Positions 2,125 to 46,514 of a stretch of 46,514 nt of DNA are shown in pieces; the first letter of the stretch is position 1, and the number at the start of each line of letters is the position of its first letter. The stretch is from contig JAVCDE010000005.1 of NCBI GenBank assembly GCA_030765185.1, positions 1 through 46,514 on the forward strand, given 5' to 3'. The notes under the pieces are model-generated. The model made no database searches, was not told where the DNA came from, and saw only the letters and a list, made by a program, of their open reading frames with translations. Both the position numbers and the translations under genes were made by a program. Source of the DNA: Candidatus Aceula meridiana. Its GTDB lineage: Bacteria; Omnitrophota; Gorgyraeia; Zapsychrales; Aceulaceae.

Positions 2125-2763
2125 ATGAGATTTGATGAACTGATTAAGAAAGTGCACAATCTTCCTGTTATCGACACTGAAAGTTTGTTGGCAGGAGGTG
2201 CTGATGCAAGATCTATCCAGGTCCAAATCAGCCGTTGGCGTAGATCCGGTAAGCCTATTAAGCTTAAAAATAATATTTATTTATTGTCTAAGGATCTTCG
2301 TAAAATAGAAGCTCATGAATTTTATATTGCTTCTTTGTTAACAAAGCCTTCTTACATTAGCCTTGAGAAAGCTTTGGAGTATCACGGTCTTATCCCAGAT
2401 GCTGTTTCTGTTTATACTTGCGTGACGACAAAAAGGCCTAGAAAAATTACTACACCGATTGGTATCTTTGATTATCGGCATGTCAAAAATAATCTTTTTT
2501 GGGGATATCGCTCATTGATGATCGGAAAGCAGCTGTCCTTTATGGCTTATCCAGAGAAAGCGCTCTTGGATTTTTTTTATCTTCGAGGGCTATCTATCAA
2601 TATCGACTATCTTCAAGAGATGCGGTTGCAGAATTTAGAAGAGCTGGACTTGCCAAGGCTGGTGAGCTTTGCCAAGAAATTTCAAAGCCCCGGAGTTATC
2701 AAAGTCGCGAGTTTGATTGAAAGATACGCTTTAGAATACACTGGGTCAGGAAAGGATGCATGA
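2125..2763 (+). CDS. AbiEi-like type IV antitoxin / winged-helix autorepressor
   Basis: 212 aa. The N-terminal ~60 residues look like the AbiEi winged helix-turn-helix (SIQVQISRWRRSGKPIKL, then the NIYLL strand). The middle has the typical run SYISLEKALEYHGLIPDAV, and the C-terminal half carries MAYPEKALLDFFYLR, all characteristic of the AbiEi antitoxin family. These proteins neutralise the AbiEii nucleotidyltransferase without forming a stable complex and repress the operon. Its stop overlaps the start of the toxin gene by 4 nt (ATGA), the classic two-gene arrangement. It sits between sugar-nucleotide genes and glycosyltransferases with no functional link to them, which suggests a transferred stability or phage-defence cassette. 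Family assignment is firm; activity is untested. Confidence 0.85.
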   Translation: MRFDELIKKVHNLPVIDTESLLAGGADARSIQVQISRWRRSGKPIKLKNNIYLLSKDLRKIEAHEFYIASLLTKPSYISLEKALEYHGLIPDAVSVYTCVTTKRPRKITTPIGIFDYRHVKNNLFWGYRSLMIGKQLSFMAYPEKALLDFFYLRGLSINIDYLQEMRLQNLEELDLPRLVSFAKKFQSPGVIKVASLIERYALEYTGSGKDA

Positions 2764-3566
2764 AAGACCATCTGCTAGAATTAGTATCAAAAAAAGAAGG
2801 TTATAACGCAAAACTCAATTTAATGCGGGAGTATTTGCAGGCATATGTCTTAAGAGTTATGCACGATGAGGGTGTTTTTCGTTTTGCGGCGTTTTTAGGA
2901 GGAACAGCCTTGAGGTTTTTGTATGATTTGCCTCGCTTCTCTGAAGATCTTGATTTTTCGTTAGTTAGTAAGCCTTCTATTGATTTTTCTTCTTTGATGA
3001 AAAAGATAACGGCCGAACTCAAAGCCGCTGGATACGATGTCGTAACTACACATAATGATAAGAAAGTTGTTAACTCCGCTTTTATTAAATTTTCTGGATT
3101 AATGCACGAGGCAGGAATTTCACCTTTAGCAAGTCAAAAATTTTCTATTAAAATCGAAATTGATAGCAATCCTCCGCAAGGGGCGGAGGCGGAAGTCAAA
3201 GTCGTTAATAAATATTTTCCAATTTCTTTTTTATCTTATGAGGTCTCATCGCTTTTTGCCGGGAAACTGCATGCTTTGTTAAGCAGAAAATATACGAAAG
3301 GTCGGGATTATTTTGATTTAGGGTGGTATCTTGCAACATGGAAAGATTTATCGCCGAATCTTGCACTGCTTGTTAGTGCCTTGCGTCAGACTAAATGGCC
3401 TAAAACTATGCCGGCAGAGGATACCTGGAGGGATGTTGTTTATGAAGCGATCAGTGACGTGGATTGGAACACGGTCAGAAGAGATGTTGAGAATTTTCTT
3501 GAAAATCCAAGAGATTTAACCATTTTTACTAAAGAAAATGTCCTTGGGTTATTGCGCAAGTCTTGA
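2760..3566 (+). CDS. AbiEii-like nucleotidyltransferase toxin (DUF1814)
   Basis: 268 aa with the AbiEii motifs in order: GGTALR (47-52), RFSEDLDF (59-66, with the D63-x-D65 metal pair), KIEID (131-135) and KLHALLSRKYTKGRDYFDL (169-187). AbiEii toxins are nucleotidyltransferases of the polymerase-beta type; relatives modify tRNA 3' ends with nucleotides and stop growth. All catalytic positions I can recognise are intact, so it is probably active unless restrained by the antitoxin encoded just upstream. The start is the ATG inside the ATGA overlap with the antitoxin stop. Nearby non-TA relatives in this fold exist, but the pairing with AbiEi makes the toxin assignment strong. Confidence 0.87.
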   Translation: MKDHLLELVSKKEGYNAKLNLMREYLQAYVLRVMHDEGVFRFAAFLGGTALRFLYDLPRFSEDLDFSLVSKPSIDFSSLMKKITAELKAAGYDVVTTHNDKKVVNSAFIKFSGLMHEAGISPLASQKFSIKIEIDSNPPQGAEAEVKVVNKYFPISFLSYEVSSLFAGKLHALLSRKYTKGRDYFDLGWYLATWKDLSPNLALLVSALRQTKWPKTMPAEDTWRDVVYEAISDVDWNTVRRDVENFLENPRDLTIFTKENVLGLLRKS

Positions 3567-3613: not shown

Positions 3614-4408
3614 ATGAAAAATTCTAAAGAAAAATTTTCAATTATTATGCCCGCCTACAACGAACAAGGGCGTATTGCAATAAGCATTGAAGAGGTCGCC
3701 AACACTTTTAAAGATTTTGGCTGTTCCTGGGAATTGATTATTTTTGATGATGGGTCAAGCGATCAAACTTATGAAAAAGCGCTTGAGTCAAAAGAAAAAT
3801 ATCCCAAAGAGCTTATTGTTAAAAGAAATTTTAGAAATATTGGAAAGGGAAGGGCGCTTAAAAAATCTATTCGTTATGCGACAGGAGATTATATTGTTTT
3901 TTTAGATGCCGATATGGACCTGCATCCTCGTCAGCTTCAGACTTTTTATGATATTTTAAAGCTTGATGATGCTGATGTTGTTGTCGGTTCTAAACAGCAT
4001 CCTAACTCTATCGTGGGATATCCTTTTTTACGTAAGATTTTAAGCCTAGGGTATTATTTGCTCATTCGTATTTTATTTAACTTACCTTGTCGTGATACGC
4101 AGACAGGTATTAAACTTTTTAAGGCTGAAGTATTGCGCAAAGTTTTTCCAAGGCTTCTTGTAAAGAAGTTTGCATTTGATTTAGAACTTTTAGTTAACAT
4201 TAACCATCTGGGATACAAAATTGTTGAGGCACCGGTTGTTCTTTCAAGCCAGCGTCTTAAGAATCGCATCAGCCATAAGTCTGTTGCTGTTATTTTCTGG
4301 GACACCTTAGCTGTTTGGTATCGCATGTATGTCAGAAAGTATTATGATCGTATCGATTATCATCGCCGTAAAAATATGGCAAAAGAATTTAGAAGAATGC
4401 GTAAATAA
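3614..4408 (+). CDS. Glycosyltransferase family 2, dolichyl-phosphate-sugar synthase-like
   Basis: 264 aa with a GT-A fold: FSIIMPAYNEQGRI at the N-terminus, the FDDGSSD nucleotide-binding motif (44-50) and the metal-binding DAD (98-100) in FLDADMDLHP. The sequence RDTQTGIKLFKAEVL is typical of the polyprenyl-phosphate beta-glycosyltransferase group (DPM1/DPG-like). No membrane segment is evident, so it would act at the cytoplasmic face, perhaps making undecaprenyl-phosphate-sugar for the GT-C-like proteins further down; that link is inference. A TTG at 3581 is in frame, but the ATG at 3614 sits just before the conserved domain. Its last 65 nt overlap the next gene in another frame. Confidence 0.8.
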   Translation: MKNSKEKFSIIMPAYNEQGRIAISIEEVANTFKDFGCSWELIIFDDGSSDQTYEKALESKEKYPKELIVKRNFRNIGKGRALKKSIRYATGDYIVFLDADMDLHPRQLQTFYDILKLDDADVVVGSKQHPNSIVGYPFLRKILSLGYYLLIRILFNLPCRDTQTGIKLFKAEVLRKVFPRLLVKKFAFDLELLVNINHLGYKIVEAPVVLSSQRLKNRISHKSVAVIFWDTLAVWYRMYVRKYYDRIDYHRRKNMAKEFRRMRK

Positions 4409-5324: not shown

Positions 5325-6793
5325 AAATTATTATTTGTTTCCCACCGTTAAATTCAGAAAAGGGCTGCCCGACCTTAGGGCAAAACCGCCAATTCCAATA
5401 TTTTAAAGAACCTACCTTGATTTATCCTGTTGTTCCTGCCATTGCCGCAACACTTTTAAAACAAAATGGTTTTGATGTTGTTTGGCTCGACTGTCTTGCT
5501 CAAAATATCACACAGGAAGACTTTTTTGCTATGGTTAAAGAGCAAACCCCGGACATCATTGCTTTTGAAACAAAGGCCCCTGTTATCAAAAAAGAATGGG
5601 AAATCGTTAATCGTCTTAAAAAAGAAAACCCAAAGCTTCTGACAGCTTTCTTTGGTGATCATGTTACAGCGCTGCCTCAAGAATCTTTTGAGCATTCAGG
5701 CATTGACTACGTTTTGACAGGCGGAGATTATGATTTTCTTCTTTTAAATCTGTGCAAACATTTACAAGATCCGCAAGGCATTAGTCTCGAAGGCGGTATC
5801 TGGATGCGCAAAGGGGAGGCCGCTGAAAGTACGGGTGATTTTACACTTGAGCATAATTTAGATATGCTTCCTTTTATCGATAGAGATTTAACTTGCTGGA
5901 AAGATTATGCGTATAAAAACGGAAATTATCGCCGTACGCCTGGAACCTATATCATGAGCGGGCGCGACTGCTGGTGGGGTAAATGTACGTTTTGTTCTTG
6001 GCCACAACTTTATCCTAAGTTTCGCGCCCGAAGCGTGAAAAATGTTTTAGATGAGATTCAGCACTTGGTAGAAACTTTTCATGTCCGCGAAATTATGGAT
6101 GATACAGGGACATTTTCTGTAGGCGCATGGCTAAAAGAGTTTTGCGAGGGGATGATTGAAAGAGGGTTAAATAAAAAAGTTACTTTAGATTGCAACATGC
6201 GTTTTGGGGCTGTGGATTTTGAAGGATACAAACTGATGCGTAAGGCTGGATTTCGGTTCCTACTCTTTGGAGTAGAGTCGGCGAACCAAGCAACATTAGA
6301 TAGAATTAAAAAAGATTTAACTGTCGAGGTGATAAAGAAATCTTGCAAAGAGGCAAGAGAAGCGGGACTTTATCCGCATATCACGATTATGTTTGGATAT
6401 CCTTGGGAAACATTGGAGGAGGCGAACAATACTTTTGATCTTGGCGCATGGCTTTTGAAAAAGGGTTATGCGTATACGATGCAATCGACCGTTGTCATTC
6501 CTTACCCGCGCACACCGCTTTTTGTTGAATGTGAGGAAAAGGGTTGGCTGACAACAGGAAGCTGGGATGATTTTGATATGAAGCGGCCTGTTATGAAATT
6601 AGGATTTTCAGAGAGTGAAATTCCAAAGCTTGTTCAAAAGCTTTATAGAGTCAGCTTTTCTCTGGAATTTATTTTTAGAAAAATTTTAAGTATTAGAGAG
6701 ATTGACGACATCAAGTATTTCTGGCGTGCATTTTTAAAAGTGATTGGACATATTTTGGACTTTAAAAGAAATAAACCTAAAAAACGATTATGA
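5321..6793 (+). CDS. B12-binding-domain radical SAM protein
   Basis: 490 aa. Residues ~1-150 look like a cobalamin-binding Rossmann domain (YPVVPAIAATLLKQNGFDVVWLD, then FFGDHVTALPQE), though no DxHxxG motif is present. The radical SAM domain begins near 200. Its cysteines are C217, C222 and C225 in RDCWWGKCTFC, a CX4CX2C spacing rather than the usual CX3CX2C. Relatives methylate or rearrange unreactive carbons in sugars, lipids and other metabolites. Start and stop each overlap neighbours by 4 nt (ATGA), so it is translationally tied to the GT2 before it and the flippase after it, suggesting it modifies the glycan or its lipid carrier. The substrate is unknown. Confidence 0.8.
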   Translation: MKIIICFPPLNSEKGCPTLGQNRQFQYFKEPTLIYPVVPAIAATLLKQNGFDVVWLDCLAQNITQEDFFAMVKEQTPDIIAFETKAPVIKKEWEIVNRLKKENPKLLTAFFGDHVTALPQESFEHSGIDYVLTGGDYDFLLLNLCKHLQDPQGISLEGGIWMRKGEAAESTGDFTLEHNLDMLPFIDRDLTCWKDYAYKNGNYRRTPGTYIMSGRDCWWGKCTFCSWPQLYPKFRARSVKNVLDEIQHLVETFHVREIMDDTGTFSVGAWLKEFCEGMIERGLNKKVTLDCNMRFGAVDFEGYKLMRKAGFRFLLFGVESANQATLDRIKKDLTVEVIKKSCKEAREAGLYPHITIMFGYPWETLEEANNTFDLGAWLLKKGYAYTMQSTVVIPYPRTPLFVECEEKGWLTTGSWDDFDMKRPVMKLGFSESEIPKLVQKLYRVSFSLEFIFRKILSIREIDDIKYFWRAFLKVIGHILDFKRNKPKKRL

Positions 6794-8055
6794 AGATCAA
6801 GCAGTTTTTAAAAACAGACTTCCTGAAACATTCGGCTATTGTCTTTGCAGGCACGTCTCTGGTGGGTGTCTTCAACCTGCTATACCATTTAGTCTCGGTA
6901 AGAATCCTTACGCCGGAAGACTATGGAACATTCAATGCTCTTATCGCTTTAGTAACTTTTAGCTCTATGACGTTCTCCCCTTTAAGAACAACGCTTGCAC
7001 GATTTTTCACGGAGTACATTGCAAAAAAAGATTACCAAACCTTAATAAATGTTTCAAGGAGGATTTTTCTAAGGACTATTTTTGTCAGTATTGGTGTTTT
7101 TTTATTTTTTGTATTCTTTTCAGGGCCATTAGCAGAATTTTTTAAGACGCAAAATTACTGTATTATTATTATCGGTGGGATTATTTCTTTATCTCTTCTT
7201 TCTCTGCTAGTTGCACCAATTTTTCAAAGTTTTCAGAAATTTAAATCGTTTTCTTTTCTTGGAATATTTTCTTCCTCGGGAAAGCTAGTTCTTGGAGGGT
7301 TTCTGATGGTTTTTGGCTTTGGCCTTTCAGGAGCTTTAGTAGGATTTCTCGTCGCACCGCTGTTAGTTCTTTTCTTTGGATTAATTGCACTTTTTTTAAA
7401 AAGAAAGGAAGTCTTTAATTTTAAGGAAAAATATCATTCATCGGTTAATTTGACTCCAATATATAGATATTTCCTTCCGGTTTCTCTAGCGGTGCTTTCT
7501 TTTTCTGTTCTTACAAATATTGATATTGTGCTAGTAAAGCGTTTTTTTTCACCTCTTGATGCTGGCCAGTATTCAGTAGCTCAAATCGTCGGAAAAATAT
7601 TTTTATATTTCCCGTCAGCTTTAGCCATTGTCATTTTTCCTAAAAGCACACAAGCTTATGTAACAAAGTCTCATTCAAATAAGATTTTGTATAAAGCTTT
7701 AATTTTAGCCGCATCTATGTCTGGAGTGGGAGTGATAATTTGTTTTTTGTTTCCTGGCTCTGTCCTTCAATTGTTAACAGGAAAGGCTAATCCAATAAGC
7801 AATAATCTTGTCGGGTTATTTGCTTTTTCGATGAGCTTCTATGCTCTCTTGTGGATTGTTGTTAATTTTTTATTGGCAACACACAACTTACGATTCTTAA
7901 AAAGAATTATTTTTTGTGCAATCGCACAAACGGTGGCCATTTGGTTTTTTCATTCAACCTTAAAGCAAGTCTTAGTCATCGTTTTTATGTTTTCCGTAAT
8001 TTCCTTTTTTGGCGTACTTTTTTGCGTCAATGATACAAAAGATAATTTAAGATAA
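6790..8055 (+). CDS. Wzx-like polysaccharide flippase (MOP superfamily)
   Basis: 421 aa, strongly hydrophobic throughout, with about 12 membrane segments. The N-terminal run VFAGTSLVGVFNLLYHLVSVRILTPEDYG contains the RxLxPEDYG pattern that opens Wzx and oligosaccharide flippases. The family moves undecaprenyl-pyrophosphate-linked repeat units across the inner membrane. It overlaps the radical SAM gene by 4 nt. A second flippase of the same superfamily lies at 25834, unusual for a single repeat-unit pathway. Confidence 0.82.
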   Translation: MKIKQFLKTDFLKHSAIVFAGTSLVGVFNLLYHLVSVRILTPEDYGTFNALIALVTFSSMTFSPLRTTLARFFTEYIAKKDYQTLINVSRRIFLRTIFVSIGVFLFFVFFSGPLAEFFKTQNYCIIIIGGIISLSLLSLLVAPIFQSFQKFKSFSFLGIFSSSGKLVLGGFLMVFGFGLSGALVGFLVAPLLVLFFGLIALFLKRKEVFNFKEKYHSSVNLTPIYRYFLPVSLAVLSFSVLTNIDIVLVKRFFSPLDAGQYSVAQIVGKIFLYFPSALAIVIFPKSTQAYVTKSHSNKILYKALILAASMSGVGVIICFLFPGSVLQLLTGKANPISNNLVGLFAFSMSFYALLWIVVNFLLATHNLRFLKRIIFCAIAQTVAIWFFHSTLKQVLVIVFMFSVISFFGVLFCVNDTKDNLR

Positions 8056-8083: not shown

Positions 8084-8896
8084 ATGGAAATAAATGTTTT
8101 CGTAAGCGTCGTTATCCCTACAAAAAATTCGTCTGAACATTTAGACAAAGTGCTACTTTCTGTAAGAAATCAAACGTATCGAAATATTGAGATTATTGTG
8201 GTAGACAATGATTCCGTTGATGACACTCGAGAAATTGCTGCAAAGCATACTGATAAAATATATACCCAGGGATCGGAAAGAAGCTCGCAAAAGAATTTTG
8301 GAGCAAAAATAGCAAAAGGGGAGTACATTTTTTTCTTAGATTCAGATGCAGAGCCATCGGAGGAAGTCGTTTGGGAGTGCGCAAAATTAATTCAAAAGGG
8401 ATATGATATGGTTATTATCCCCGAAAAACATCTAGGTTCTAATTTTTGGGCAAGGGCAAAAGCCCTGGAAAGAGAATGCTTTTTAAATGACGATACCATA
8501 GAGGCTCCTTGGTTTTTCAAGAGAGATTCATTCTTTTCTGTTGGAGGATATGATGAGGAAATGTTTGCCGGAGAGGATTGGGACCTGTTTGAGCGGATGA
8601 AAGAAAAAGGATATCAGTTTACAAGAAATCAGTCTTTTATAAGGCATCATTTGGGACATCTAAAATTCTGGAAAGCGATTCGCAAGAAATATTATTACGG
8701 TAAGAACTTAGGTGTGTTTATCGAGAAGAATAAGAAATCTTTTTCACGAAGAATACCATTTTTACGGCCGGCCTATATTAGAAACTGGAGATTGTTGATA
8801 AGACATCCATTTTTAACAATAGGGTTTTTACTGCTTAAAGCCGCAGAGAGTTTTTTTATTCTTTTAGGCATTATTAAATATAAATTACAAAAATAA
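8084..8896 (+). CDS. Glycosyltransferase family 2
   Basis: 270 aa. Seen in order: VSVVIPTKNSSEHL, the IIVVDNDSVDDT motif (38-48), the metal-binding DSD (86-88), and FAGEDWDLFERMKEKGY with the ED base motif. The C-terminal tail ends in a hydrophobic stretch (FLTIGFLLLKAAESFFILLG), probably a membrane anchor. The family transfers a nucleotide-activated sugar with inversion; donor and acceptor cannot be read from sequence. It starts 28 nt after the flippase and ends one base before the next gene. Confidence 0.82.
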   Translation: MEINVFVSVVIPTKNSSEHLDKVLLSVRNQTYRNIEIIVVDNDSVDDTREIAAKHTDKIYTQGSERSSQKNFGAKIAKGEYIFFLDSDAEPSEEVVWECAKLIQKGYDMVIIPEKHLGSNFWARAKALERECFLNDDTIEAPWFFKRDSFFSVGGYDEEMFAGEDWDLFERMKEKGYQFTRNQSFIRHHLGHLKFWKAIRKKYYYGKNLGVFIEKNKKSFSRRIPFLRPAYIRNWRLLIRHPFLTIGFLLLKAAESFFILLGIIKYKLQK

Positions 8897-42834: not shown

Positions 42835-44056
42835 AAGCGTCCTAATAATTACAGAACGTTTTTATCCAGAAGAGTTTGGGATTAATGATTTGGCATTGGC
42901 TTGGCGCGCTAAGGGCTTTGAGGTCGCTGTCTTAACACAATTACCCAGCTACCCTTTTGATAAAATTTATGATGGATATACTAATAAATTGTTTCAAAAG
43001 GAGAAATGGGAAGGGATTAAGATTTACAGAGTTTGCTCTTTGATGGGATACAGAAAGAACGTATTTTTAAAAGTTTTGAATTATTTATGGTTTGCCTTTT
43101 TGGCATCGTTTACGGTATTGTTTATCGGGCGAAAATATGATGCCATATTTGTTTATCAGGTCGGTCCTTTAACACAGGCGATTCCTGCAATGATCGCCAA
43201 GACATTTTTTCAAATAAAAATGTATCTGTGGACGTTAGATATTTGGCCGGATACGGTTTACGCCTATGGATTTAAACGGGGGAAGTTTTCTGCTAAATTG
43301 TTGAATTGGTTTGTTGGTTTGGTTTATAGGAATTGCGAAACGGTATTTATTTCTTGCAGGGGGTTTAAGGAAAAGATTCAATGTTATGCGCCGAATGCCT
43401 GTATCGTTTTTGCGCCGCAATGGGCTCCATCTGAGATGAATTTTCGCGATATACGATCTCAAAGGTGTTTCCATGAAGGATTCAATTTTACCTTTGCTGG
43501 GAATATCGGAAAAGTCCAGAATTTAGAGAATGTTATCCGGGTTTTTTGTCTGGCTCAAAGGCGATACCGTGATATGAATTTAAACATTATCGGAGATGGA
43601 TCGCATTTAGAGTGTTTGAAAGATATTGCCAGCAAGGAAAAAGTGCAAAATGTGTTTTTTTGGGGAAGGCAGCCGTTAAAAGAAATGCCGCAGTGGTTTG
43701 AAGAAAGTGATGCATTAATTATTTCCCTGGTTGATAAGCCGATATTTTCATTAACTGTTCCGGCGAAATTTCAGGCATATCTCGCTTCACGTAAACCCAT
43801 TTTTTGTGTGATGAGAGGAGAAACAGCCTCATTGGTGAAAGATTACAATATTGGGTTGATTGCAGACCCTGCTGATGAAAATGCGATTCAGTCGGGGTTT
43901 GAGAATTTTTTTAATTTGCCTCAGGAAAAAGCTCGAGAATTTAAGAAAAATATGCATATCCTTTTGGAGAAAGAATTTGATCATGATAAGGTGATCCAGA
44001 GGATGACAAAAAAGATTTTTGATGTTTTTGCGGCAGAAGAAGGAGCCTCTTCGTGA
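42821..44056 (+). CDS. Glycosyltransferase family 4, WbuB/WcaI-like
   Basis: 411 aa. VLIITERFYPEEFGINDLALAWRAKGFEVAVLTQLPSYPFDKIYDGY is close to the WbuB/WcaI opening. Then YQVGPLTQAIPAMIAK and MYLWTLDIWPDTVYAYG, a trait of this group. The donor domain starts at FTFAGNIGKVQNLENVI, and LTVPAKFQAYLASRKPIFCVMRGETASLV is the nucleotide-site helix. WbuB-type enzymes often add N-acetylfucosamine to lipid-linked GlcNAc or QuiNAc; the SDR immediately downstream fits this, but the sugar is inferred. It overlaps both neighbours (14 nt and 4 nt). Confidence 0.85.
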   Translation: MKKNKSVLIITERFYPEEFGINDLALAWRAKGFEVAVLTQLPSYPFDKIYDGYTNKLFQKEKWEGIKIYRVCSLMGYRKNVFLKVLNYLWFAFLASFTVLFIGRKYDAIFVYQVGPLTQAIPAMIAKTFFQIKMYLWTLDIWPDTVYAYGFKRGKFSAKLLNWFVGLVYRNCETVFISCRGFKEKIQCYAPNACIVFAPQWAPSEMNFRDIRSQRCFHEGFNFTFAGNIGKVQNLENVIRVFCLAQRRYRDMNLNIIGDGSHLECLKDIASKEKVQNVFFWGRQPLKEMPQWFEESDALIISLVDKPIFSLTVPAKFQAYLASRKPIFCVMRGETASLVKDYNIGLIADPADENAIQSGFENFFNLPQEKAREFKKNMHILLEKEFDHDKVIQRMTKKIFDVFAAEEGASS

Positions 44057-45003
44057 ATATTTTAGTTACTGGGGCCAATGGTTTTATTGGGCGAGCATTG
44101 TGCCGTGTTTTAACGGTGCAGGGGCATGTTGTCCGGTCTGCGGTGCGCTCTGTAGAGAAATTTGAACAGCTGCCGGATGGTGGTGAAAAAGTTTCTGTGG
44201 GTGATATTGGGTCGAATACAGAATGGTCATCAGCATTGGAGGGCATTGACGCAGTCGTTCATTTAGCGGCCCGTGTCCATATTTTTAAAGAATTGACCGC
44301 TGATTCACTTGAGGCATTTCGCAAAGTGAACGTGTTGGCAACTGAACGCCTGGCGCTAGCAGCTACAAAGGCAGGAGTTAAAAGATTTATTTTTATCAGC
44401 TCCGTCAAGGTTAATGGCGAGGGAAGTTCGCAGCCATACACTGAGAGCGACTGCCCTAATCCTCAAGATGCTTATGGAATCAGCAAGCGTGAAGCTGAGG
44501 ATGTGTTGAGGATAATCGCGGCTGAGACAGGGATGGAGGTTGTTATTCTACGACTGCCGTTAGTTTATGGCCCAGGGGTGGGGGCGAATTTTAAGAATTT
44601 GACTAAGCTTGTTGCTCTTGGCGTACCGCTGCCGTTTAAGAATATTGATAATCAGCGCAGTTTTATTTATCTTGGCAATTTGATAGATGCTATTGCTGTA
44701 TGCGTTGAACATCCTAAGGCTACAGGAGAGACTTTTTTGATAAGCGATGGCGAGGATGTTTCTACTCCGGATTTAATGAAAATAATAGCGAATGCATTAG
44801 GTAAGAAGTTAAGATTATTTTCTTTGCCTTATGGTATTTTAAGGATATTGTGCAAAATTGCAGGCAAGAGTGAGCAGTTGGAGAAATTGACAGGGACTCT
44901 TCTCGTTGATAGCAGTAAAATTAGGGATTTGCTTGATTGGAAGCCACCCTTTAGTCTTGAGGAAGGCATCAAAGAAACTGTGAAGAAGGGTATTAGCGTT
45001 TAG
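44053..45003 (+). CDS. NAD-dependent epimerase/dehydratase, WbpV/QuiNAc-type 4-reductase-like
   Basis: 316 aa. NILVTGANGFIGRALCRVL, then VHLAARVHIFKE, FISSVKVNGEGSSQPY and catalytic DAYGISKREAEDVL; LPLVYGPGVGANFKNL is typical of the WbpV/WreQ group that reduces UDP-4-keto-6-deoxy-GlcNAc to UDP-N-acetylquinovosamine. The start is GTG inside a GTGA overlap, with AGGAGCC as ribosome site. Its last codons and stop merge in phase with a heptanucleotide repeat tract. A second near-copy of its 3' coding end lies at 46371-46394. In other loci a WecA/WbpL-type initiating transferase follows such a gene; none is found here. Confidence 0.85.
   Translation: MNILVTGANGFIGRALCRVLTVQGHVVRSAVRSVEKFEQLPDGGEKVSVGDIGSNTEWSSALEGIDAVVHLAARVHIFKELTADSLEAFRKVNVLATERLALAATKAGVKRFIFISSVKVNGEGSSQPYTESDCPNPQDAYGISKREAEDVLRIIAAETGMEVVILRLPLVYGPGVGANFKNLTKLVALGVPLPFKNIDNQRSFIYLGNLIDAIAVCVEHPKATGETFLISDGEDVSTPDLMKIIANALGKKLRLFSLPYGILRILCKIAGKSEQLEKLTGTLLVDSSKIRDLLDWKPPFSLEEGIKETVKKGISV
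44959..44982 (+). repeat. Left copy of a 24-bp near-direct repeat (3' coding end of the SDR gene)
   Basis: These 24 bases encode EEGIKETV. They match 46371-46394 at 22 of 24 positions, differing at the fourth and seventeenth base. The two copies enclose the heptad repeats and the XRE/Fic gene pair. Confidence 0.7.
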
Positions 45004-45062
45004 TATATGGTATGCAGTATGTAGTATATGGTATCTAGTATGGAGTATGTGGTATGTAGTAC
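45000..45062 (+). repeat. Heptanucleotide tandem repeat, nine units (consensus NNRGTAT)
   Basis: Nine consecutive 7-mers can be laid out: TTAGTAT, ATGGTAT, GCAGTAT, GTAGTAT, ATGGTAT, CTAGTAT, GGAGTAT, GTGGTAT, GTAGTAC. The first unit contains the TAG stop of the SDR gene, and TTAGCGT just before it is in phase. Heptad tandem repeats are known from cyanobacteria (STRR sequences); a shared mechanism is not implied. Confidence 0.85.
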
Positions 45063-45087
45063 TCAGGATGGCGTTGAGCGGATATGT

Positions 45088-45114
45088 CCCACCTTCGCGC
45101 AAGGCTTCGGCGGG
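45088..45114. repeat. 27-bp GC-rich interspersed repeat, copy 1
   Basis: Begins CCCACCTTCGC and ends GGCTTCGGCGGG. It recurs with small changes at 45120-45145. It is much richer in GC than the surroundings and contains a small CCTT/AAGG hairpin. Its placement between heptad tracts suggests an interspersed repeat family. Confidence 0.7.
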
Positions 45115-45119
45115 TAAAT

Positions 45120-45145
45120 CCACCTTCGCCGTAGGCTTCAGGCGG
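45120..45145. repeat. 27-bp GC-rich interspersed repeat, copy 2
   Basis: Reads CCACCTTCGCC, then GTAGGCTTCAGGCGG. It aligns to copy 1 with a few substitutions and one extra base. It runs directly into the second heptad tract. Confidence 0.7.
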
Positions 45146-45173
45146 ATAGCGGATAGTGTTTAGTGGATAGAGA
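45146..45173 (+). repeat. Heptanucleotide repeat, four units (ATAGCGG type)
   Basis: ATAGCGG, ATAGTGT, TTAGTGG, ATAGAGA. The same heptad type returns at 46409-46443 on the other side of the XRE/Fic pair. Confidence 0.7.
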
Positions 45174-45200
45174 GAGATTTCTATTCTTTTAGGATTAGTT

Positions 45201-45220
45201 TGTTGACATATTAGACAACA
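45201..45220. promoter_or_regulatory. Operator palindrome 1 for the XRE/Fic operon
   Basis: TGTTGACATATTAGACAACA: TGTTG-N10-CAACA, half-sites agreeing at 7 of 10. It covers the -35 box TTGACA. A second palindrome of identical plan lies 33 bp downstream, centre to centre. Confidence 0.8.
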
Positions 45221-45231
45221 TATACTATACT
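45203..45231 (+). promoter_or_regulatory. Strong sigma70-type promoter of the XRE/Fic operon
   Basis: Consensus -35 TTGACA (45203-45208), 17-nt spacer, -10 TATACT (45226-45231). It is the best promoter in the window. The start of transcription would fall inside operator palindrome 2, so binding at either palindrome should block RNA polymerase. Confidence 0.85.
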
Positions 45232-45233
45232 TA

Positions 45234-45253
45234 TGTTGATATATAAGTCAACA
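45234..45253. promoter_or_regulatory. Operator palindrome 2 for the XRE/Fic operon
   Basis: TGTTGATATATAAGTCAACA: same TGTTG-N10-CAACA plan, half-sites agreeing at 8 of 10. It begins 2 nt after the -10 box and covers the expected transcription start. Spacing of 33 bp from palindrome 1 places both on the same face of the helix. Confidence 0.8.
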
Positions 45254-45289
45254 ATAAGTAGCTGTATAGAGCATTAAAAGGATGCAAAT

Positions 45290-45760
45290 ATGAAAAATAA
45301 GAATCTTCAGAGCACAAGAAAACAAATCGATGCCAAGCTTGTGAAAATAAAACGATTGGGAGCAATGGCGCAGCGTCCGTCTAAGGGATGGATTTATGTT
45401 ATACGGACGTCTCTAGGTCTTAACGTAAGGCAGTTCGCTGAACTCATGGGTGTTGACAAATCACGGATTAGCCGTATGGAAAAAGACGAGATCAGGGGAT
45501 CTTTAACGATTCATTCTCTTCGCCATGCCGCCCAAATTTTGGGCTGTGAGCTTGTTTATGCATTTGTTCCTTTAAAGAATCTTGAGGATGTTGTTAGAAA
45601 AAGAGCAGGGGTTGTTGTCCAACAACAACATGATCGTAGTTCGCATACGATGGCGTTAGAAGGCCAGGAATTGGATCAGCAACAGAAGAAGTCTTTTTTT
45701 AAAGCAGAAATTGAACAATTGTGTCGAGAAACGCCAAAATATTTATGGGAGAGGTCATGA
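45290..45760 (+). CDS. XRE-family repressor, 'mobile mystery protein A' type
   Basis: 156 aa. A helix-turn-helix of the XRE class lies at about 36-90: WIYVIRTSLGLNVRQFAELMGVDKSRISRMEKDE, then SLRHAAQILGCELVYAFVP. The pattern and pairing fit the family called mobile mystery protein A, which is always found upstream of a Fic-family mobile mystery protein B and often on mobile DNA. Its role is probably antitoxin-like or at least autoregulatory: the promoter before it carries two matching palindromes. AAAAGGAT stands 6 nt before the ATG. The stop overlaps the Fic gene by 4 nt (ATGA). The Gln-rich VVQQQHDRSSH region after residue ~105 may be a linker. Confidence 0.88.
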   Translation: MKNKNLQSTRKQIDAKLVKIKRLGAMAQRPSKGWIYVIRTSLGLNVRQFAELMGVDKSRISRMEKDEIRGSLTIHSLRHAAQILGCELVYAFVPLKNLEDVVRKRAGVVVQQQHDRSSHTMALEGQELDQQQKKSFFKAEIEQLCRETPKYLWERS

Positions 45761-46344
45761 GTAAATCAAAGATCTATCCTCAGGAAACTCCTCTTGACCC
45801 TGATGAAGAAAATGGATTGCTGATAGCACATATCACAACCCGCAAGGAGCTCAACTATTGGGAACAGAGCAATATTGCTCAAGCCATGCAATGGTTAGCT
45901 AAGAAACAACAAAAAAATTCTTTAACTGTTATTTTTATTCGTAAACTTCATAAAAAGATGTTTGGTATGGTTTGGGCTTGGGCTGGAGAGTTTCGTAAAA
46001 GTGACAAAAATATAGGTGTTCCAGCACGGCTTGTTGCCTCTGAGCTACAGAAGCTTTGTGATGACGCTGAGTTTTGGGTTAGAAATAAGACTTTTTCTAG
46101 CGATGAAATTGCTGCGCGCTTTCATCATCGTTTGACGTGGATTCATCCATTTCCTAACGGCAACGGTCGACACGCACGTTTGATGACGGACCTTTTTTTG
46201 AAAACTATTTTTAATGCGCCTTGTTTCACGTGGGGTTCAGTCAATTTGATACAACAAGATTCTGCGCGAAAACGTTATGTTAGCGCGCTGCAATCTGCGG
46301 ACGCTGGTGATTTTAGGCCATTGTTGGATTTTGTTAGGACATAA
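45757..46344 (+). CDS. Fic/Doc-family AMP-transferase, 'mobile mystery protein B' type
   Basis: 195 aa. The Fic motif is HPFPNGNGRHAR (130-141), with catalytic His130 and phosphate-binding loop intact. WAWAGEFRKSDKNIG (74-88) is the flap region before it, and DEENGLLIAHITTRKELNYWEQ at the N-terminus is typical of mobile mystery protein B. Fic enzymes usually transfer AMP (or another nucleotide part) to Ser, Thr or Tyr hydroxyls of target proteins and act as toxins or regulators. I do not see a clear inhibitory [S/T]xxxE[G/N] helix; TTRKEL (27-32) is the nearest match but lacks the final Gly/Asn. Start is the ATG in the overlap with the XRE gene. Confidence 0.9.
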   Translation: MSKSKIYPQETPLDPDEENGLLIAHITTRKELNYWEQSNIAQAMQWLAKKQQKNSLTVIFIRKLHKKMFGMVWAWAGEFRKSDKNIGVPARLVASELQKLCDDAEFWVRNKTFSSDEIAARFHHRLTWIHPFPNGNGRHARLMTDLFLKTIFNAPCFTWGSVNLIQQDSARKRYVSALQSADAGDFRPLLDFVRT

Positions 46345-46370
46345 ACCGAACATGGCGATAGCTTTTTTTT

Positions 46371-46394
46371 GAGCAAGGCATCAAAGCAACTGTG
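46371..46394 (+). repeat. Right copy of the 24-bp near-direct repeat (remnant of an SDR 3' end)
   Basis: Reads EQGIKATV in the frame matching the SDR gene at 44053. 22 of 24 bases equal 44959-44982. The frame closes at TAG 46408-46410 (EQGIKATVGLQRE) and runs straight into the ATAGCGG heptads. It begins 27 nt after the Fic stop. Confidence 0.65.
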
Positions 46395-46408
46395 GGACTT
46401 CAGAGGGA

Positions 46409-46443
46409 ATAGCGGATAGCAGATAGAACATAGCTGATATTGG
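46409..46443 (+). repeat. Heptanucleotide repeat, five units, right of the XRE/Fic pair
   Basis: ATAGCGG, ATAGCAG, ATAGAAC, ATAGCTG, ATATTGG. First unit identical to the first unit of 45146-45173. The last 71 nt of the window after it hold nothing I can name. Confidence 0.75.
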
Positions 46444-46514
46444 GCGGTAAAGAGCGAAATGTGAAAAGTTGGATGAGGATTATCGATGTAGGTTGAAGGA
46501 TAAAAAGAAGAATC

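Follow-up and report, generated by a model that had tools for sequence, protein, structure and literature searches.

An XRE/Fic gene pair between two copies of an epimerase gene end at a defense hotspot without a visible integrase in Candidatus Aceula meridiana

How do small toxin-antitoxin (TA) and defense cassettes come to lie at a chromosomal site where no integrase is visible? This question is raised by a stretch of 46,514 nucleotides from Candidatus Aceula meridiana (assembly GCA_030765185.1, contig JAVCDE010000005.1, here C9), referred to below as the window. Near its end, an XRE gene and a Fic gene are located behind a gene of the short-chain dehydrogenase/reductase (SDR) type, and a second copy of the SDR gene end follows the Fic gene. 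We consider it probable that the XRE/Fic pair is the outermost cassette of a chromosomal TA/defense island, and that it was inserted behind the SDR gene, leaving a second 26-nt copy of the gene's 3' end. Insertion at the SDR 3' end is well supported by comparison with relatives; the mechanism behind it is one that we infer.

The first-pass annotation had noticed that 24 bp encoding the C-terminal end of the SDR recur after the Fic gene with 22 of 24 bases identical, and that TAG-bearing heptads follow in both places. Both observations held. The match is the same as the direct repeat found here, in which positions 44957-44982 and 46369-46394 share 24 of 26 bases, and heptads were located at 45001-45061 and 46410-46433. 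The best 26-mer match in shuffled right-hand sequence reached only 16 to 18 of 26 bases (12 shuffles). Alignment of the two neighborhoods confirmed that the match is real and sharply limited to 26 nt; no homology was detected beyond it, with upstream and downstream flank scores being reached by 1823 and 1067 of 2000 shuffles, respectively. Campbell-type integration via long homology was ruled out, since the match stops at 26 nt, and a gapped alignment that seemed to continue into the heptads was discarded because its flanks scored no better than shuffles. The in-frame TAG stop codons at 45001-45003 (left) and 46410-46412 (right) are each the first TAG of a heptad array. Recombination between the two copies is predicted to remove about 1.4 kb and to re-form an in-frame SDR gene.

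SDR orthologs were identified as per-genome best matches among 54 genomes, our own included, with protein identities of 57% (G001), 55% (G046), and 50% (G014). Further orthologs with 60 to 64% identity (L065, L066, L067, and L094) were found among 40 loci, and the four closest SDR loci of these 40 were all from Omnitrophota. Of eight SDR loci, including our own, five were empty, two were filled (our own and G001), and one (L094) was without a sugar transferase gene in the fetched locus. In the five empty loci (G046, G014, L065, L066, and L067), the SDR gene is directly joined to the sugar transferase gene; in four relatives the two genes share 4 bp (ATGA), and the join is similarly tight in G046. 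The SDR end is present once in each of these loci: the next-best match on the same strand was 15 to 19 of 26 bases, compared to 15 to 17 in shuffled sequence (one shuffle per locus). When the C-terminal 46 residues of the SDR were searched by tblastn in 15 loci and in the window, a second partial copy came up in L094 only. This search is blind to 26-nt copies and missed the window's own right copy; the 26-nt ends were therefore scanned directly. The idea that the cassette was inserted at the SDR 3' end is supported by these five orthologous sites with a single copy each, and the two-copy state in an empty relative, which the first-pass annotation had named as speaking against its proposal, was not seen.

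The XRE/Fic cassette, initially described as a single unit, is present as described but turned out to be one of five in an island that extends over contigs C9, C14, and C15: XRE/Fic, helix-turn-helix (HTH)-HipA, DUF1016-SNase, AbiEi/AbiEii, and AAA/DUF4143, all on one strand. The SDR gene, part of a polysaccharide cluster, forms the left flank of this insertion hotspot. At the same site, G001, which belongs to the same genus, carries AAA/DUF4143, HTH-HipA, DUF1016-SNase, a second HipA, and another AAA/DUF4143 cassette. The HipA and SNase cassettes occur in the same order in both genomes, with 85% and 79% nucleotide identity, respectively. Because they are shared in this order, gene content suggests that the island already existed before the two species split and that later the first slot was filled differently, by XRE/Fic here and by an ATPase in G001. 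In G003, a member of the same family, a DUF1016-SNase cassette lies between heptads at the opposite side of the sugar transferase gene, which is preceded by a glycosyltransferase gene and not by an SDR gene. The sugar transferase was found at an E value of 1e-50 or less in 6 of 48 genomes, G003 and G025 among them. The best PADLOC matches of the island genes were PDC-S04 (Fic), PDC-M03A (HipA), PDC-S02 (DUF1016), PDC-S01 (AAA), AbiEi, and AbiEii; no curated cutoffs are given for this library, which comprises known and candidate systems, so that a match is not proof of defense. With the same core flanks, empty and differently filled states in relatives, and candidate-defense contents, we regard the locus as a defense hotspot without a visible integrase.

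The ends of seven orthologs and of an SDR stub in L094 (described below) were compared with the two 26-nt copies. The eight sequences matched the left copy at 16 to 21 of 26 bases and the right copy at 14 to 19. Seven of the eight were two bases closer to the left copy, both differences being private to the right copy. The lysine codon that follows ETV is kept in the left copy and in L065 to L067 but not in the right copy. All third codon positions of the right copy agree with those of its own SDR, which it matches at 24 of 26 bases, versus at most 19 of 26 for the best ortholog compared. These comparisons identify the left copy as the native 3' end of the SDR gene. As the orthologs are closer to the left copy and the lysine codon is kept on the left, the right copy is most likely a duplicate of the own SDR end that was altered later, and not the remnant of a foreign epimerase. 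The alternative raised at the outset, a stub of a different, lost epimerase, is disfavored, given that no ortholog exceeds the 24 of 26 bases shared with the own SDR.

Comparable scars were found at other cassette edges. A 31-nt, 90% identical copy of the DUF1016/SNase gene start (C14, 1880-1910) is located at 1721-1751 of L015 (C15), just upstream of the sugar transferase gene. In L094 (Omnitrophota), a 42-codon SDR 3' stub (5429-5557) follows an AAA/DUF4143 gene at a distance of about 45 bp; 64 of 74 nt are identical to the SDR of that locus, including 29 consecutive bases, and the SDR end matches at 23 of 26. The first-slot cassette of G001 has a perfect 36-nt heptad direct repeat on both flanks, and the last SDR codons of that genome lie within a heptad array that is identical at 27 of 29 positions to the array behind the second HipA. 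A candidate second SDR stub in L103, from a metagenome-assembled genome of Methanothrix, was rejected, as it proved to be the end of a different, longer-tailed epimerase located at the contig edge. Locus L094 also contains a perfect 50-nt palindrome upstream of its SDR gene (7849-7898), several shorter palindromes, and an in-frame insert of about 15 codons net inside the SDR gene (8738-8800), in which a palindromic stretch was recognized by eye.

Position 46514, where the window stops, is a contig edge; the locus goes on in C14 (4.6 kb), which opens with the last 127 nt of C9. C15 likewise opens with the last 127 nt of C14, in the same orientation, and this second break falls inside the AbiEii gene. 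C14 starts at 46388, the first base past the last repeat mismatch; the preceding base is C in the right copy and A in the left. Starting in the SDR left copy or in some other sequence, an alternative allele could enter the right-hand side through the repeat and break the graph at 46388. The position of the break is what a 127-mer assembly graph is expected to give if a repeat-joined allele coexists in the population, and it is suggestive in this respect.

The heptads are concentrated at this site. In our own assembly, RGTATNNRGTATNNRGTAT forms one array, at 45001-45061 (six overlapping matches), and four consecutive TAG-N4 units form two arrays (three matches, one of which is a contig-overlap double), whereas reversed-pattern controls gave no match. 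All of these arrays flank the XRE/Fic cassette. The pattern GCGGATAGCRGATAG has one further site in the genome, on C32. Heptads are more common in G001 (23 matches), where they are found behind the SDR gene and behind four of the five island cassettes. Two side observations concern the same relative and genus: at approximately 39.8 to 43.8 kb of G001 contig C15 (L105), on the same contig as its island, two more AAA/DUF4143 ATPase genes lie near heptad arrays, and in L049 a heptad-plus-block unit behind the congener's SDR gene is tandemly duplicated (3630-3982; 164 nt, 97%).

These observations can be combined into the following course of events. The island would have grown between the SDR and sugar transferase genes, a pair that is directly coupled in relatives. 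Just behind the last SDR codons, XRE/Fic would have been inserted as a self-contained operon, an event that kept the SDR gene intact on the left and added a 26-nt duplicate of its 3' end on the right. Host recombination or repair acting on short repeats, i.e., gene-end copies and intergenic heptads, may have joined the incoming DNA, with no dedicated integrase. An allele joined at the repeat, in which the SDR left copy (...AAAGA|AACTGTG) leads into GGGACTTCAG, may persist in the population. Since the edge repeats recur but differ in sequence, host recombination or repair would be favored over one site-specific enzyme. A more far-reaching proposal, that TA/defense cassettes enter and leave this one site by integrase-free exchange via short gene-end or heptad repeats, and that XRE/Fic still undergoes excision or exchange at its 26-nt SDR repeat in the present-day population, with the SDR gene re-formed each time, appears doubtful to us.

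It should be noted that several points weigh against insertion by this route. The joining itself is not observed directly. For homologous recombination, 26 nt with two mismatches is a short stretch, and a site-specific core could also be of this length. The search yielded no cassette-free strain of this species, and the SDR proteins of the empty relatives are only 50 to 64% identical to ours. Among the orthologs, G014 is the exception in having both states of the right copy (E-Q and E-A). The argument from the contig break is indirect, as a branch after 46514 would yield the same 127-nt overlap, and the joined allele was present in none of 129 loci, where the right-junction pattern, which such an allele would also fit, matched copies of the window end only (10 of 129). 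The assembly is 94.6% complete, and the genome-wide search covered tyrosine recombinases only. Finally, heptads of G001 also adjoin housekeeping genes (fatty acid synthesis and triosephosphate isomerase) and were absent near the three other full-length mobile mystery pairs found in the order, in the stretches fetched from G005, G019, and G029. This distribution weakens the heptads as the cassette's own recombination site and leaves them unsupported as a shared cassette border, as which they had been put forward originally. They are a feature of our species and G001 that is concentrated at this site, but not a proven part of the cassette or a proven recombination site.

The alternative that fares best is that the 26-nt copy is templated filler, left when an unrelated insertion was completed by error-prone end joining or by template switching, and has no role in mobility. 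We regard this as a minor possibility. The sharp limits of the repeat on both sides, the 31-nt gene-start scar elsewhere in the island, and the lack of a dedicated tyrosine recombinase among those found are consistent with it, whereas the contig break exactly at the repeat hints at a crossover point, present or past, in the population.

Somewhat less likely, the repeats are attL/attR-like cores of site-specific integration in trans, with an integrase encoded elsewhere, or XerCD, moving a nonautonomous TA unit. The direct repeat is of plausible core length and located at a gene 3' end, the gene is restored in frame, and the cassette carries no recombinase. The assembly encodes XerC and XerD, both on C32, and Acinetobacter is reported to have dif modules that carry TA genes and are moved by Xer. 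Furthermore, the Fic protein matched 269 plasmid records, all at less than 60% identity, and the 15 listed are annotated as mobile mystery protein B; no plasmid match was obtained for the flank DNA at 45062-45300. The repeat, however, is not dif-like. The best match to E. coli dif within 44901-46514 was 18 of 28 bases and located in the heptads; 20 shuffles gave 15 to 18, and 2 of the 20 reached this value. A Xer dif module was rejected, as no dif-like site was found at the ends within this stretch. Moreover, XerC and XerD were the only tyrosine recombinases found, the core flanks no other cassette of the island, the first-slot cassette of G001 has a different flanking repeat, and self-complementarity of the core is not strong (at best eight matches in the offsets tried). 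A genome-wide look for cassettes between the same repeat, suggested along with the initial observation, likewise located the 20-nt core (three mismatches or fewer) at two sites of the 1.91-Mb assembly, both at this cassette, and the 26-mer core was absent from all other island cassettes. The initial statement that integrase and transposase are lacking stands for integrases among the island genes scanned and, apart from XerC and XerD, for tyrosine recombinases in the assembly; serine recombinases, transposases, and end-joining genes were not searched genome-wide.

In an improbable third scenario, another SDR allele once occupied the place of the right copy and was replaced along with part of the polysaccharide cluster, only its 3' end remaining: SDR stubs do exist (the end of the L094 stub resembles the L065 to L067 genes more than the SDR of its own locus), EEGIKETV-type endings recur among other epimerases, and G014 shares the E-Q and E-A states, but the match to the own SDR exceeds that to any ortholog, all third codon positions agree, and no homology is found outside the 26 nt. 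Other candidates were rejected. An integron cassette was dismissed, as five flank stretches folded no better than shuffles (z of -0.13 to 1.06); both tyrosine recombinases scored under the TIGR02249 cutoff for integron integrases, and the heptads gave no stable fold as attC-like sites. An RNA element was rejected after an Rfam scan of 44000-46514 gave no match at gathering score. As to an integrase-borne genomic island, no integrase was recognized among the island genes scanned, and no tRNA was found in L001, L003, L015, or L049; the 26-nt direct repeat may be att-like, but there is no recombinase to which it could be assigned. The parallel to an attachment-site duplication drawn in the first-pass annotation is neither borne out nor contradicted by these results.

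The coordinates of the cassette and its surroundings are compiled in Table 1. The XRE and Fic proteins correspond to the NCBIfam families mobile mystery protein A and B; both scored above the curated cutoffs, and Fic is encoded directly downstream of XRE, its start codon overlapping the XRE stop codon by 4 bp (ATGA). Protein B exceeded the cutoff in 4 of 48 genomes, including our own, and a fifth genome contained a partial match below it. The catalytic motif of Fic proteins is HxFx(D/E)GNGRxxR. In the present protein it reads HPFPNGNGRHAR, with N at the position where D or E is usual, as in three relatives, and because of this substitution Fic catalysis is uncertain. The C-terminal part of the XRE protein contains TMALEG, which fits the motif (S/T)xxxE(G/N), described as Fic inhibiting in PMC3667792, of a class I Fic partner. 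T120 and E124 are invariant in four of four homologs; E124 is followed by K in the other three. On the basis of family and motif, the XRE protein is probably the antitoxin and the Fic protein the toxin, and the pair would function as an autoregulated Fic toxin-antitoxin system. A promoter-like site at 45203-45231 fits at 11 of 12 positions; four such sites of any quality occur in the region, with 3.4 expected from shuffles. Repeated GTTGAC/GTCAAC half-sites, recognized by eye, surround it, and together they may constitute an autoregulated promoter of the pair.

Table 1. Features of the XRE/Fic cassette and its flanks (window positions)
Feature	Position	Strand	Basis or remark
SDR gene, NAD-dependent epimerase/dehydratase family	44053..45003	+	PF01370, 137.3 bits; orthologs adjoin sugar transferase
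Left repeat copy	44957..44982	+	Native SDR 3' end; encodes LEEGIKETV
Heptad array TAGTATATGGTATG...	45001..45061	+	Tandem Repeats Finder (TRF); begins at SDR stop codon
Two CCACCTTCGC..AGGCTTC units	45089..45139	+	Nowhere else in own assembly at 2 mismatches or fewer
TAG-N4 heptads	45142..45170	+	Pattern match (one array given as 45147-45170)
Promoter-like TTGACA-17-TATACT (45203-45231) with operator-like half-sites TTGTTGAC ... GTCAACAA	45200..45255	+	Half-sites by eye
XRE protein, mobile mystery protein A	45290..45760	+	TIGR02612, 144.2 (cutoff 122.6)
Fic protein, mobile mystery protein B	45757..46344	+	TIGR02613, 255.2 (cutoff 124.4); PF02661
Right repeat copy	46369..46394	+	Encodes EQGIKATV, in frame to TAG at 46410
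127 nt identical to start of contig C14	46388..46514	+	Starts one base past last repeat mismatch
TAG-N4 heptads after right copy	46410..46433	+	Pattern match

Elsewhere in the window, a second AbiEii-type pair is located inside the polysaccharide cluster at 2125-3566, with PF08843 in the second gene and no Pfam match in the first. By eye, its neighbors look like aminotransferase and glycosyltransferase genes.

Defense hotspots without a visible mobile element are already known, and how their contents move is an open question. The locus described here offers a testable scar in the form of a duplicated gene end, empty as well as filled sites, and, with the contig break at the repeat, a prediction of specific junction reads. 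Whether host recombination on short repeats is what moves such cassettes could be addressed directly here. A literature search with poor coverage of subscription journals and without bioRxiv preprints returned no description of this locus and nothing on Omnitrophota together with defense islands.

Several known systems share part of these features. Hotspot #37 of E. coli and the core defense hotspots of P. aeruginosa, as described in PMC10121019, also have fixed core flanks, are empty in some genomes, hold varied defense-type contents, and often show no detectable mobile element. Many of them contain integrase or recombinase genes, whereas none was recognized in our island, which further differs in its polysaccharide SDR and sugar transferase flanks and in the gene-end scars and heptads between single-operon cassettes. 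The mobile mystery proteins A and B (TIGR02612 and TIGR02613) are matched over both cutoffs and in the order A then B, but our pair belongs to a genome contig, where a polysaccharide cluster surrounds it and a host gene end is duplicated at its flanks. The plasmid dif modules of Acinetobacter are reported to be likewise small TA cassettes between short sites without a recombinase of their own; the 26-nt repeat differs from those sites in being a copy of a coding gene end that is not dif-like. Finally, heptamers such as TAACTGA in Beggiatoaceae are, according to PMC4679880, intergenic 7-nt direct repeats as well. They have another sequence and are mostly located just upstream of start codons, while the arrays flanking our cassette begin at or follow stop codons.

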